From: Daucus carota subsp. sativus
Taxonomy: Eukaryota; Streptophyta; Magnoliopsida; Apiales; Apiaceae
Length of the DNA stretch: 64,000 nt
NCBI RefSeq assembly: GCF_001625215.2
Contig: NC_030381.2
Location: 51,793,214 to 51,857,213 of the forward strand
Reading direction: 5' to 3'
Below the pieces are notes generated by a model that saw only the letters and a list, made by a program, of their open reading frames with translations, did no database searches and was not told where the DNA came from. This document shows, piece after piece, positions 19,689 to 27,575 of the stretch. Position numbers and translations under genes: made by a program. How positions within the stretch are numbered: position 1 is the stretch's first letter; every line of letters starts with the position of its first letter.

Positions 19689-20640
19689 ATGGGAGCATCT
19701 GAGAGCTCACAACATGATCAGGCTAACGCCCAACCATCTAATGAGAAACCCTCCACACTAACCTCGAAAAACTCTGAAGAAGGCCACACTAATCCGATCC
19801 CGGATGCAATTTCTCAGAGAAGGACAGAATTAGGATCAGAACTAAAGCCACCTCCTCATAACTATGAAGCCATTGTAAAAGATGCGGCCATTGACAAGTC
19901 CTCAACTGAAAAGCTTTACCAGCAGCTCTACACTGGAGTGTTACTTAACCAAAAGAAACAGGTAATTCTTATCATTTACTACTTGTAATCGCTGAAAACT
20001 AGTACAAATTCATTAGTTAACTATATGTTACTGTGGAATTCTATTGTTACAGAAGTATTGGGTGGACAAGAAGTCCCATGCCAACTGTTTCATGTTGTAT
20101 GCGAGGAGTCTTTCAATAACTTGGAGCGAAGACAGACGTTTCTGGCACTGGCCTTATGACAGTGAAAGGTTGAAATTTCTTCGTTTTGAAAATCATATAG
20201 AAATTTATTTTTTCAGTTTTGACAGTATATAAACTAAGCATGGGTTATTATGCAGTGATGGTGTGTTCGTCGATGTTGCTGAATTGCTAAACGTATGCTG
20301 GCTAGAAGTGTATGGGAAACTCGAGGCATCAATGCTTTCACCTGGGGTGCTGTACGAATTTGCTTTCGTGGTCATGTTAAAAGATCCTGCATATGGATGG
20401 GAAGTTCCAGTAAACCTGAGGCTTACTCTTCCCGATGGAACTAAACAAGAACACAAAGAAAATTTGATGGAAAAGCCAAGAGGAAGGTGGATAGAGATTG
20501 TCATAGGCGAATTTATGGCCTTGCAGGATAAACCTGGAAAGATTGAGTGTTCTTTATTTGAATATGAAGGTGGAAAGTGGAAGAAAGGCTTGCTTATTAA
20601 AGGGGTGGCAATCAGGCCAAAAGCATCTATCAAGGTCTAG
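19689..20640 (+). CDS. Phloem protein 2 (PP2-A1-like) lectin
   Basis: Exons 19689-19961, 20053-20168 and 20256-20640 (273, 116, 385 bp) join in phase to 257 residues. The first 90 residues are a variable, Ser/Thr/Asn-rich tail followed by a family-like helix (YQQLYTGVLLNQKKQ). Residues 92-257 are the PP2/Nictaba-type lectin domain, with KYWVDKKSHANCFMLYAR, SITWSEDRRFWHW, the core VMLKDPAYGWEVPVNLRL, LPDGTKQEHKENLMEKPRG and the terminal KGVAIRP. PP2 proteins are abundant chitooligosaccharide/N-glycan-binding lectins of phloem sieve elements and are stress-linked. The chosen ATG (MGASESSQ) is the first in frame; an upstream in-frame stretch from 19647 has only a GTG. A related gene and a decayed copy follow. 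Confidence 0.92.
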
Positions 20641-21472: not shown

Positions 21473-22329
21473 ATGGCACAAGCATTTAGCCACGACGGTA
21501 TCAGATCATTGTGGTCTCAATGTGAAGAAAGTAAGAAACTCCATTTTATCTCCCAGGACAAACCGGTAACTATAAGCTTTATCTTTGCAGAACAATATAC
21601 TATAAAGCTTTCGGAAATTATTCTAGATTTTTCCTTCATCATTCAGAGGGTTGCTAATATGCCAGTTCAAGGGTTACATGCAACTTAATTTACCTTCTGA
21701 ACTCTGAAGTTTTTGTGTACTACTTTTTCGTGTCTCTTGTATTGTTCAGAGTCTTGTGGGACAACTAAATGCAAGGGATCTGTCTATCACTTCTGGTTCA
21801 GATCTTTGTCACTGGAAATGGAGTCATGTAAAAGACGGCATAAGGTGAGTTATTGGACAAAGACAGGATATGGTGAAATCTGCAACAGAATTGACTAGGA
21901 AATATTGAACTTTGAAATTTAAGGTCCTAGAAAAAACTTTGTAATCTCTTCCCTCATTTTTTCAGTGGTGATATGAACGAAGTTGCTGAACTGCTTGAGA
22001 TTCGCTGCCTTCAAATTGATGGAAGATATGAGGCGAATAAGCTCAAACAAGGATTGCTGTACGAGGTGCAATATGTGGTGATGCTGAAAGACAACCACAC
22101 CATTACTACTCCACTGAAGCTTGTACTTACTCTTCCCGATGGAACAAAACATGAAAGCACTAAGAATCTGATGGAAGAGCCGAGAAACCACATGATAGGA
22201 CTCAAACTAGGACACTTTCTCACCCAAAATTTAGGTGGAGATGTTAAGTTCTCTCTGGTGGAGAATAGTTCAGCTCAAAAAAGAGGTTTAGTTGTTATTG
22301 GTGCGCTAATCGTGCCTAATATAGTGTAA
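21473..22329 (+). CDS. Short phloem protein 2-like lectin
   Basis: Exons 21473-21565, 21750-21844 and 21966-22329 (93, 95, 364 bp) join in phase to 183 residues. The second and third exons follow the same intron positions as the gene upstream, so this is a tandem duplicate. The lectin domain is recognisable: LNARDLSIT with HWKW, NEVAELLEIRCLQIDGRYE, VVMLKD, LTLPDGTKHE, NLMEEPRNH and a final GLVVIGALIVP. It differs in two ways. The N-terminal tail is short, and the usual YWVD..NCFMLYA segment is replaced by a degenerate SLVGQLNARDL, so sugar binding may be altered. The frame is open and splice sites are good, so it is probably expressed. Confidence 0.82.
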
Positions 22330-23595: not shown

Positions 23596-23883
23596 TTTTT
23601 GGTGAATTGATCTTTTACCACTGTCTGTGTACTAAAAAAAGAAACTACACTTGGTTTTTTTTTTGAAATAAGTATGTCATGTACCTGGAAGATACAATGT
23701 GATGAGATAGTCAAGTGATAAAGGCTTATCCTCTGTCGTCCCATGTTCAATTTTTGTTCACCCTGAGATCTTGATGCAACTACGTATCTAATGGCGGCAT
23801 GCTTACTACACGAGGAAGAAATCTGAATAATAAAGACTTGGTAATTCATAGATCATAATTCATTTATGTCCTTAAAAAAAAAT

Positions 23884-24919
23884 GGGTTAATGTTCTATTC
23901 CATCACTTTACTGGACCAAAACTTTCAGTTAGCCTACCGAGTCAAAAAAGTTTTCATTTAAATAATAAAGCATCTAAAAACTTTCAATCACAAGATTAAG
24001 TATAAAAAATATTTCAACGCCGTTAATCCTACCTTTGACTTTAACAGATGATGTTAAAGTTAACGGAATGCATGTTTTTGCATTTGTTTGTGTTATATAT
24101 AAATATATTTGTGTATATGTTTGTGCTCCCTGTTATCTCTATTTTTCTCCCTCTCTTCTCTCAGTCGCCTCGATCCCTCTCCGTCTCTCCATCTCTGCCC
24201 AGCCTTCTCTCTTCCTTCCTCCCTCATTCTAACCTCTCTCTTTTTATCTCACCTTCACTCTCCTTGTACATACTACAACCCACCAACCCATGCCATCAAT
24301 TCCCAGTAGTGGGGCTCGCTTCCTCGTATACAAACCTAAAAAAAATAAATATCAAACCTCCATCTATTTTTTTCAACACGTTCTGGCCATTAAAATCTCA
24401 TACGCACTCATCAAAACTTTAATAATCAAAATCCTATTATTCAGCTTTTCTGAAGAATAACATATAAATCATATGATCCAATACTTAAAACAATAAAACA
24501 TGGACGATCAAAGGTGGGTTTTATAAGAAATCATACCCTTCACCAAGCTAAAAAAAAAAAGTTGTCTTGGAATGTTATCAGATAGAATGTTGGCAGATGG
24601 TTTTTTGCCAAACATTATGCTTTATACCCCAGCAGAGTGTGCGTTTTACTTCTTCCGCTGGGGAGGGAAGAAAGGAAATGGTGATTGATCAGGAGCCTAA
24701 TTGCTTGCAAAGCTGTACTTTACTCAGTAGGGTCATTGAAAATTTTGATCAAAATTAGTGATGACATAGAGCATTAACATGTTAAATTTTTAACGGAGAC
24801 TAATGGAATGACCTTTTTGCAAGTTTTAAAGGTACAATTAGTTGACTGAAAGCTTTTTTCACTCGGTAGGTCAACTGAAAGTTTTGATCGAGTACAGTGA
24901 TGAAATAGAGCATTAACCC
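23884..24919. mobile_element. MULE-like element 1, 1036 bp, just upstream of cytochrome c6A
   Basis: The left end GGGTTAATGTTCTATTCC and the reverse complement of the right end, GGGTTAATGCTCTATTTC, begin inverted repeats of at least 70 bp that share ACTTTCAGTT and CCTACCGAGT. AAAAAAAAAT flanks both sides (23874-23883, 24920-24929). The right end carries a second, inner copy of the terminus (around 24765-24780). The interior has a pyrimidine-rich block (about 24120-24260) and, near 24580-24680, a stretch whose translation (MLADGFLPNIMLYTP, CAFYFFRW) resembles a pentatricopeptide-repeat protein. Host sequence capture is therefore likely. The element ends 84 bp before the ancestral ATG of cytochrome c6A. 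Confidence 0.85.
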
Positions 24920-25003: not shown

Positions 25004-27575
25004 ATGCAGACTTTAGGGTTAATGCTCTAATTGGTCACTGTACTGGACTAAAACTTTCAGTTGGCCTACCGAGCCAAAAAAGTTTTCATTTAAATAATAA
25101 AGTACGTAAAAACTTTCAATCACGAGATTAAGCAAAAAAAATATTTCACCGCCGTTAAACATGTCTTTGACTTTAACGGAAAATGTTAACTTTAACGGAA
25201 TTTAAGGATTAATGCTCTGTTTCATCACTCTACTTGATCAAACTTTCAGTTGACCTACCGAGTCAAAAAAGTTTTCATTTAAATAATAAAACACGTAAAA
25301 ACTTTGAAAATGCTACTTTGTTTGATACGTTGCATGGGAGCCGGGATTTTGATGGGATTCAGTCAATGAAAGTGTACATGGAAATGCAAGGGTTTGGGCT
25401 CAGGCCATCTGCAACCATGTTTGTTTCGTTAATCGATTCATTTGTTAAATCACATGCAAAGTCAGAGAAGTTTTAGATAGCAATGTCTGTCTTTTCAGAT
25501 ATGGAGAAGGCCGGAAATCTGCCCACTCCATCTACCTATTCTTGTCTCTTGGAAATGCATGCTGCTACTGGCCAAATAGATTTTGCCATGAAGCTGTATA
25601 ATTCGATGTAGTGTGCTGGTCTAAGACCGGGACCCATTACTTATACTTATGTAAGTGCTAGTGATGTTTTAATGGTTTATATCAAGGATGCTTATGTTGA
25701 TCTTGCCTTAGGATGGTTAGGTTTCATGGGTTGCACGGTTTGTGATAGAGCAAAACTTATTCGACATGTGCTTACCCTGGATTCAGCGGGTAATTTGGTT
25801 CAAGAAGGTTGTGTACTACACAGGTTATCACCTGATATGTACTGATGAGATGAACTACACTGCAGATGTTGGCGAGCTTATAAGAAAAAACATCTATTTC
25901 CAGATTGCTTGCATAGTTGTCATGTACTCGGTAGGCCAAGTGAAAGTTTTGATTGAGTACAGTGATGAAATTGAACATTAACCCATTAGAAACTTAACGG
26001 AGACTGACGGAGTGACCTATTTGAAAGTTTTTAATAGTACAATTAGTTGACTGAAAACTTTTTTGACTCGGTAGGCCAACTGAAAGTTTTAGTCGAGTAG
26101 AGTGATGAAATAGAGTATTAACCCGCAGACTTTAACTCTGATTCCACCCAGAGTTTGCAAGATCAAATCCTCCATTTCAACAAAGGTCTGTCACAAATCT
26201 CACCTATATTTCATCTGGGTCAGTTCTTTTTGTCTATATTTATCATGGTCCTTATAAATTTACAACAATCGTTTGTTGTTGATATTGAAAATGCTAAAGG
26301 AAATCAAAGAAAACAGGGCAGTAGCGGAACATGGTAAAAATGAAGTGAAGTTCTTGAATATCAAGAAAATGCTGGTTCCATCTTTAATGGCTGCTGCACT
26401 ACTCACCTTATCTCCAGTCATCAATCCTCCAGGTCCTCTCATTTATACACACACTCAACTGCCCTTAATTTTCTCTGTAAATTACGTAATGCCATTCTCA
26501 TTAGTTTTCCTTTTCTTTCAGCCACTTTTTGTTCAAGAATGTGATAAATTAACCTTTACTACTAGCACTTTAAGGTTTTTGAGGCTGGGGTCACTTCCCA
26601 GTTCCCATGGTAGCACCCAGGGGCAGAATTTTGGGGGGGGGGCACCAAGCAAATTTTCGAAAAACACCTACATATTTTTAAATTTAGGGGGAGCACTTCT
26701 GTAATTTTGCAAAATTTAGAATGGTGAAAAAATGCAAAAAAAAAATTTTAGGGGGGGCACGTGTCCCCCCGTGCCTCTTACTAGATCCGCCCCTGGTAGC
26801 ACCTAAGTCCCAAAAACCAATCTGAGAAACCCGTCTTAAAAAATGGGTTTTCGAGTGAAAGAATGACAGAATGTTAAAAGTATATGATGCAGACATGCAG
26901 TCAAGCCCATATACTAAGTAAATTTTAGAGTAGACTTAGTAACTTAACATATGTCAAACCTGTGACTGAATAAGAATGTTTGTGATATTGTCTGTGACTC
27001 TACAGCATCTTTTGGACAGACTGCTGAAGTACACAGAGGAGCTTCGCTGTTTAATCGAGCTTGCATTGCATGTCATGTTGGAGGAGGAAACATAATTCAG
27101 CCAGTAAGTTTTCTCAACTTCCGTACCCATCCTTGCAAAACTACCATTGCGCGTTTAAACAATGTACTGTTGTCTTGCCAGGGTGCAACGCTTTTCTTGA
27201 AAGATCTGCAAAGGTAAATCAAGATGCAAGCTGGTTTAGTAATGCTTGCCTAATCAATTCATAGGTTGCTAAAATTTACTAATTGCTGCAGAAATGGAGT
27301 TGACACAGAAGATGAGATATACCGTGTAACGTACTATGGTAAAGGAAGAATGCCAGTACGTTCTCCATAGCTCTGAATATCTAGAGTTATTCTCCGCGTT
27401 TTAGATGAATTATAACATCCTATTCTTTCTCCAGGGGTTTGGTGTGGATTGTAAACCAAGGGGTCAATGCACATTCGGGGCTCGTCTGCAAGATGATGAA
27501 ATTAGACTTCTAGCAGAGTTTGTGAAATCACAGGCTGCTGAGGGATGGCCAAACATTGAGATTTCAGGAGAGTGA
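25004..27575 (+). CDS. Cytochrome c6A, thylakoid lumen, with a MULE inserted in exon 1
   Basis: Exons are 25004-25015 plus 26135-26185 (exon 1 split by the element), 26300-26432, 27006-27103, 27182-27213, 27292-27355 and 27435-27575. Without the insertion these sum to 531 bp and 176 residues, the usual family length, with every junction in phase. Features are a plastid transit peptide rich in Ser/Lys, a hydrophobic lumen-targeting stretch (MLVPSLMAAALLTLSPVI), haem motif CIACH at 85-89, axial Met in GRMPGFG, and the c6A-specific loop with two cysteines (CKPRGQC). Cytochrome c6A is a low-potential lumenal c-type cytochrome whose role is still debated. In this sequence the ATG and codons 2-4 are followed by 1.1 kb of transposon. 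From that ATG the frame closes after a few codons, and a TAG lies in frame just before the downstream part. The gene is probably broken, or relies on a later ATG or unusual splicing. Confidence 0.85.
25016..26124. mobile_element. MULE-like element 2 (Pack-MULE), 1109 bp, carrying PPR gene fragments
   Basis: The ends GGGTTAATGCTCTAATTGG and, reverse complemented, GGGTTAATACTCTATTTC match those of element 1, with long inverted repeats. The target duplication is GCAGACTTTA at 25006-25015 and 26125-26134. Each end is doubled: an inner terminus lies near 25204 on the left and 25982 on the right. Between the doubled ends (about 25300-25860) is captured host sequence from a pentatricopeptide-repeat gene. 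No transposase is present, so it depends on a partner elsewhere. It interrupts exon 1 of cytochrome c6A after codon 4. Confidence 0.9.
25306..25745 (+). pseudogene. Captured, rearranged PPR gene fragment inside the Pack-MULE
   Basis: The translation gives, in order, LFDTLHGSRDFDGIQS, MKVYMEMQGFGLRPSATMF, VSLIDSFVK joined to SHAKSEKF, then VFSDMEKAGNLPTPSTYSC, LLEMHAATGQIDFAMKLYNS, AGLRPG and DVLMVYIKDAYVDLAL. From memory these resemble separated parts of the Arabidopsis EMB2217-type PPR protein (At1g79490 class). The pieces keep the parental order but the repeats between them are missing. Stops interrupt the frame after EKF and after NSM. It is a non-functional copy. Its resemblance to one specific PPR family should be confirmed by a protein search. 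Confidence 0.75.
26618..26795. mobile_element. Small hAT MITE, 178 bp, in intron 2 of cytochrome c6A
   Basis: It starts CAGGGGCAGAATTTT and ends GATCCGCCCCTG, imperfect inverted ends of the CAGGGGCGGA class. The 8-bp duplication GTAGCACC flanks it (26610-26617, 26796-26803). A relative with the same ends lies at 50008-50485. Confidence 0.87.

Follow-up and report, generated by a model that had tools for sequence, protein, structure and literature searches.

Does a cytochrome c6A (c6A) gene that is split by a transposon four codons after its start still supply a protein to the plastid? The question is raised by a 64,000-nt window (the whole stretch of Daucus carota subsp. sativus DNA analyzed here) in which a 1109-bp element interrupts the first exon of such a gene. 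What makes the locus interesting is its target, since no other copy was found of this gene, which is reported across land plants and has no known function. In land plants, c6A is described as the sole representative of the cytochrome c6 family, without a known function (PMC8358224, PMC5526843), and the family at large is called widespread, though not universal (PMC8358224).

The gene lies on the forward strand and was reconstructed by joining its exons. Exon 1 opens with four codons (M Q T L; ATGCAGACTTTA, 25004..25015) and resumes beyond the element at 26135..26185, where a GT donor follows. When the element and one target copy are left out, exon 1 has 63 nt, or 21 codons, and leads into exons 2 (26300..26432), 3 (27006..27103, with the CxxCH haem motif, also placed by matches to structure chains), 4 (27182..27213), 5 (27292..27355), and 6 (27435..27575, with the two loop (LIP) cysteines located by alignment and the stop codon). 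The joined coding sequence has five GT-AG introns and 531 nt, coding for 176 residues plus the stop, and all exons and splice sites downstream of the element are undamaged. The best matches to residues 70–172 are Arabidopsis c6A chains (E 2.1e-53 to 4e-53), and the next c6 chain is far weaker (E 9.7e-13). PMC8358224 characterizes c6A by two features, a residue 52 that is hydrophobic and a loop insertion that contains two cysteines. The hallmarks are all present here (a CIACH haem motif, V52, C67, and C73), and, judged by sequence, the gene at 25004–27575 is a c6A gene by those two features plus CxxCH. It resembles Arabidopsis c6A (PDB 2dge, 2ce0, 2v07) in 79 of the 103 residues of the mature part, in V52, and in both loop cysteines, but differs from it in being interrupted by an insertion.

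The interrupting element spans 25016..26124 and was delimited by repeat finding, sibling copies, and a target-site duplication. The duplication, GCAGACTTTA, is identical at 10 of 10 positions and sits precisely at both element ends (left copy 25006..25015, right copy 26125..26134, forward strand). The repeat finder independently returned the same 10-bp pair, along with an inverted repeat whose outer ends fall exactly at 25016 and 26124. Chance does not account for a perfect 10-bp repeat that brackets an inverted-repeat element at its outer ends. The duplicated sequence takes in the G of the start codon. With the element in place, the ATG at 25004 reads MQTLGLML and then stops after eight residues, and an in-frame TAG lies at 26111. 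A first-pass annotation made from the letters alone had proposed a 1109-bp element after codon 4, an early stop from the ATG, a TAG just before the downstream part, and a 21-codon exon 1 joined in phase to five further exons (176 residues). Coordinates and duplication agree with it to the base, both stops were seen, and re-joining the exons gave the same product.

Long terminal inverted repeats (TIRs) at both ends and a duplication within 9–11 bp identify the element as a MULE. Repeat finding placed a left outer TIR (25016..25119, forward), a tandem left inner copy (25206..25309, forward), a right inner TIR (25926..25984, reverse), and a right outer TIR (26021..26124, reverse). The outer pair is 88% complementary over 83 nt without gaps and 85% over ~104 nt with gaps. 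For tandem-TIR MULEs, PMC3310237 gives as criteria two TIRs per end, each 50 bp or longer and less than 600 bp apart, and here the left copies start at 25016 and 25206 and the right copies end at 25984 and 26124. We considered whether the inner TIRs belong to a second, nested MULE and rejected this. By eye there is no duplication at the inner ends, and the sibling copies have the same layout, which tandem TIRs fit better.

Between the TIRs are pieces of three host genes, each with a located source. A pentatricopeptide repeat (PPR) gene fragment occupies 25310..25732 on the forward strand (element bases ~295–717; source L039, C4 ~43.406 Mb). It is followed by 67 bp of a TORTIFOLIA1-like gene in sense (25730..25796, forward; element bases 715–781; source L042, C6 ~15.387 Mb) and by 84 bp of an amino-acid transporter gene in antisense (25792..25875, reverse; element bases 777–860; source L041, C4 ~50.181 Mb). 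The match to the PPR source looked spliced, with gaps of 413, 87, and 87 bp, and retro-capture was entertained for this piece. It was rejected since a single frame in the source (825 residues, stop to stop) stays open through all of the gaps, which are thus deletions inside the element. The longest stop-to-stop frame within the element codes for 87 aa, too short for a MULE transposase, and by this measure the element would have no transposase of its own. Tandem TIRs, siblings with target-site duplications of their own, and three gene pieces with located sources support its identification as a true Pack-MULE, the class that the first-pass annotation had named; the TIRs, 10-bp duplication, source loci, and sibling copies were all found.

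Tomato and Arabidopsis are reported to have MULEs whose TIRs are in tandem at each end (PMC3310237). The type 1 tandem-TIR Pack-MULEs described there share two TIRs per end, a captured gene fragment, a length of ~1 kb, 9–11-bp duplications, and several genomic copies with the element described here. The likeness is one of layout, and the PPR/TORTIFOLIA1/amino-acid transporter cargo and the position in a coding exon set the window element apart. Among the papers searched, none treats Pack-MULEs together with cytochrome c6.

To date the insertion, we compared sibling copies. Searching the assembly with the TIR gave at least 41 matches. Thirteen loci were taken for comparison. Three of these are the source genes (L039, L041, and L042). 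With L045 and L046 left out as well, element ends were inspected in 10 copies, two in the window and eight elsewhere. Exact duplications of at least 10 bp were found within two bases of the set ends in 8 of these 10; in L038 the duplication matches at 10 of 11 positions, and inspection of the ends of L043 found no convincing one (best 8/11). In pairwise comparisons, the window element differs from L034 at 14 of 1024 sites, from L035 at 17 of 1024, from L036 at 25 of 1023, from L037 at 31 of 928, and from L038 at 62 of 953. Substitutions private to the window element number 4 in the 859 sites common to L034–L037 and 3 in 735 sites when L038 is added. Against L034–L036 alone it is set apart at 9 of 1023 sites, which are unpolarized. 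These three siblings are without 85 bp (element bases 416–500). Most of that segment is common to the window copy and the PPR source. The window copy therefore keeps source bases that are absent from L034–L036 and is not descended from them.

We take 0.47% (4/859) as an upper bound on the time since insertion along the window lineage. At substitution rates of 7e-9 to 1.5e-9 per site per year the insertion would be about 0.7 to 3 million years old, or at most twice that if all nine unpolarized changes are its own. The comparison supports a fairly young insertion. The first-pass annotation had held it to be recent unless the gene now uses another start or splice. The private substitutions bear out a recent insertion; the argument from intact downstream exons does not hold, because a divergence of 0.47% predicts only ~2.5 neutral changes over the 531-nt coding sequence, which makes intact exons uninformative on age either way. 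As a separate observation, the sibling Pack-MULE L035 (695–2503) holds an extra insertion of ~785 bp.

Another MULE from this TIR family (1036 bp) lies at 23884..24919 and stops 84 bp upstream of the c6A ATG; like the tandem arrangement of the TIRs, it goes unmentioned in the first-pass annotation. It has AAAAAAAAAT on both sides, a duplication that is almost all A and is thus weaker evidence than GCAGACTTTA. Relatives of its inner part are just 82% and 81% alike over most of its length, so its age is not readable by sibling comparison. Mu insertions are reported to be strongly enriched near transcription start sites, and Pack-MULEs to peak just upstream of them and fall sharply in gene bodies, a pattern read there as selection (PMC7337890). 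Two MULEs at a single gene start agree with this preference. A further element, 178 bp long (26618–26795), lies within c6A intron 2. Its ends are inverted over a short stretch (CAGGGGCAGA ... TCCGCCCCTG), and the 8-bp sequence GTAGCACC is repeated exactly on each flank. We take this one to be hAT-like by the rule of 8-bp duplications.

Copy number was assessed in the assembly of 441,086,747 bases in 11 contigs. A second intact c6A locus, which the first-pass annotation had suggested looking for, was sought with the c6A protein at E up to 1. All five matches fell at the window locus (there were four first-look candidates, and four were scored), and no second locus was found in the 441-Mb assembly. 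The window locus is the only c6A gene found there. A 185-base query joining the two flanks gave two matches. These are the two halves of the window locus, which have the 10-bp duplication in common, and the query revealed no empty-site copy in the 441-Mb assembly.

On this evidence, a non-autonomous MULE carrying three host-gene pieces jumped fairly recently into c6A exon 1 and produced the 10-bp duplication that includes the start-codon G. The frame from the original ATG now closes after eight codons, and the presequence start is separated from the lumenal signal and haem domain. We consider that this young Pack-MULE in the only c6A gene found most likely abolishes or strongly reduces the supply of plastid-imported c6A by this allele. 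The effect on c6A mRNA and protein is predicted from the DNA, and four other readings were weighed.

The element could be present on one haplotype only, in a plant that is heterozygous and has a working c6A copy. We regard this as possible, although it is the less expected state of the plant. It is compatible with loss from this allele, and the probabilities given to the two readings do not sum to one. The youth of the insertion favors it, as does an 11-contig assembly that may or may not be collapsed; in one assembly, a fixed, a homozygous, and a single-haplotype insertion look alike. The lack of a second locus and of an empty site in the assembly speaks against it, but the other haplotype lies outside the range of that search.

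A shortened or re-spliced c6A product is possible by two routes. In the first, which we think unlikely, transcription would begin in the right TIR or the exon 1 remainder and translation at M45 (26369) or at 26291, the latter requiring that intron 1 stay unspliced. The protein would keep the lumenal signal and haem domain and lack the normal presequence start. Promoters have been reported within MULE TIRs (PMC3310237). If the exon-joined mRNA is taken from 26000, an in-frame stretch of 132 aa begins with the ATG at 26369, but three ATGs in two short ORFs come before it. The ATG at 26291 shares the reading frame of exon 2, but the first 26 residues from it include four acidic ones and no Ser or Thr, a composition unlike a transit peptide. 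If made, a protein from a downstream start would probably be located outside plastids.

The second route, which we rate slightly below the first, is removal of the element as a new intron from 25018 to 26151, leaving a working gene and a 171-aa protein (MQTLGVCKIK...) that retains most of the presequence. The candidate donor is at the TIR tip (AGG|GTTAAT, 25018..25019, forward strand), and no other GT occurs from the ATG to the new stop. With a score of 1.51, this donor outranks two of the gene's five native donors. The candidate acceptor in the exon 1 remainder (26150..26151, forward) scores 0.01, above one of the five own acceptors, and keeps the frame to the normal end. Other frame-keeping acceptors for this donor are at 26316 (−0.87; 154 aa) and 26115 (−8.12; 183 aa). 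Against this, the best-scoring candidate acceptor in 26040–26431 (26073..26074, forward; score 4.44) lies upstream inside the right TIR and would yield a truncated peptide, MQTLGPTESFSRVE and then a stop. The scores also come from approximate plant matrices untrained on this plant. We simulated insertions at 54 exon-1 sites in both orientations, counting in-frame splices at least equal to the gene's weakest own sites, and 30 of 108 gave a comparable path. The in-frame path is thus weak evidence for a new intron and no sign of adaptation. There is a precedent for splicing of exonic elements in Evelknievel, in exon 13 of Arabidopsis CMT1, which can be spliced out (PMC6238269). In both cases a transposable element sits in a coding exon, and the host gene is considered non-essential. 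Evelknievel is a retroelement with measured splice variants (PMC6238269), whereas the c6A element is a MULE known from DNA. By this analogy, splicing of the whole element is conceivable.

Least probable is that the ATG at 25004 is not the gene start and the true exon 1 lies elsewhere: the Arabidopsis solved-structure chains align from residue 70 on, so without the presequence, but the joined exon 1 is open and in phase with a donor scoring 3.19, a CT-rich leader precedes it, and the ATG at 25004 is the first in frame, with no other in-frame ATG between it and the upstream in-frame TAA at 23856 when the upstream MULE is passed over.

For plastid-imported c6A, a null or strongly weakened allele remains the preferred reading, and this bears on what c6A is for. 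A plastocyanin-family frame of 219 aa without stops, above the Pfam cut-off, is present in the assembly, and the plant is therefore presumably photosynthetic. We tentatively suggest that one young Pack-MULE, inserted into the only c6A gene, may have turned a photosynthetic species or lineage into a natural c6A null or into a hypomorph with an altered presequence; in a variant of this idea the TIR tip would act as the splice donor of a new intron. If true, it would be a wild test of c6A function. PMC5526843 reports no visible phenotype on loss of c6A in Arabidopsis, copper deficiency included, and a natural disruption of the sole c6A locus found, in a plant whose plastocyanin-family frame is still open, would suggest that c6A is dispensable outside the laboratory. 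Should the insertion segregate, carriers and non-carriers could be compared directly in a species that is not a model. From the viewpoint of transposon biology, the locus is an ordinary yet clean case of a Pack-MULE that entered a coding exon recently.

Two observations were made away from c6A. A strictosidine-synthase probe of the assembly gave 17 matches, in frames no longer than 229 aa. On C2, at ~55.869–55.890 Mb, there are five strictosidine-synthase-like matches with equal scores, spaced 5.05–5.09 kb apart, which look like a recent tandem array. Within the window, two similar open frames at 20233–20640 and 21931–22329 are possibly a tandem pair, and we take them to resemble phloem protein 2 type lectins.
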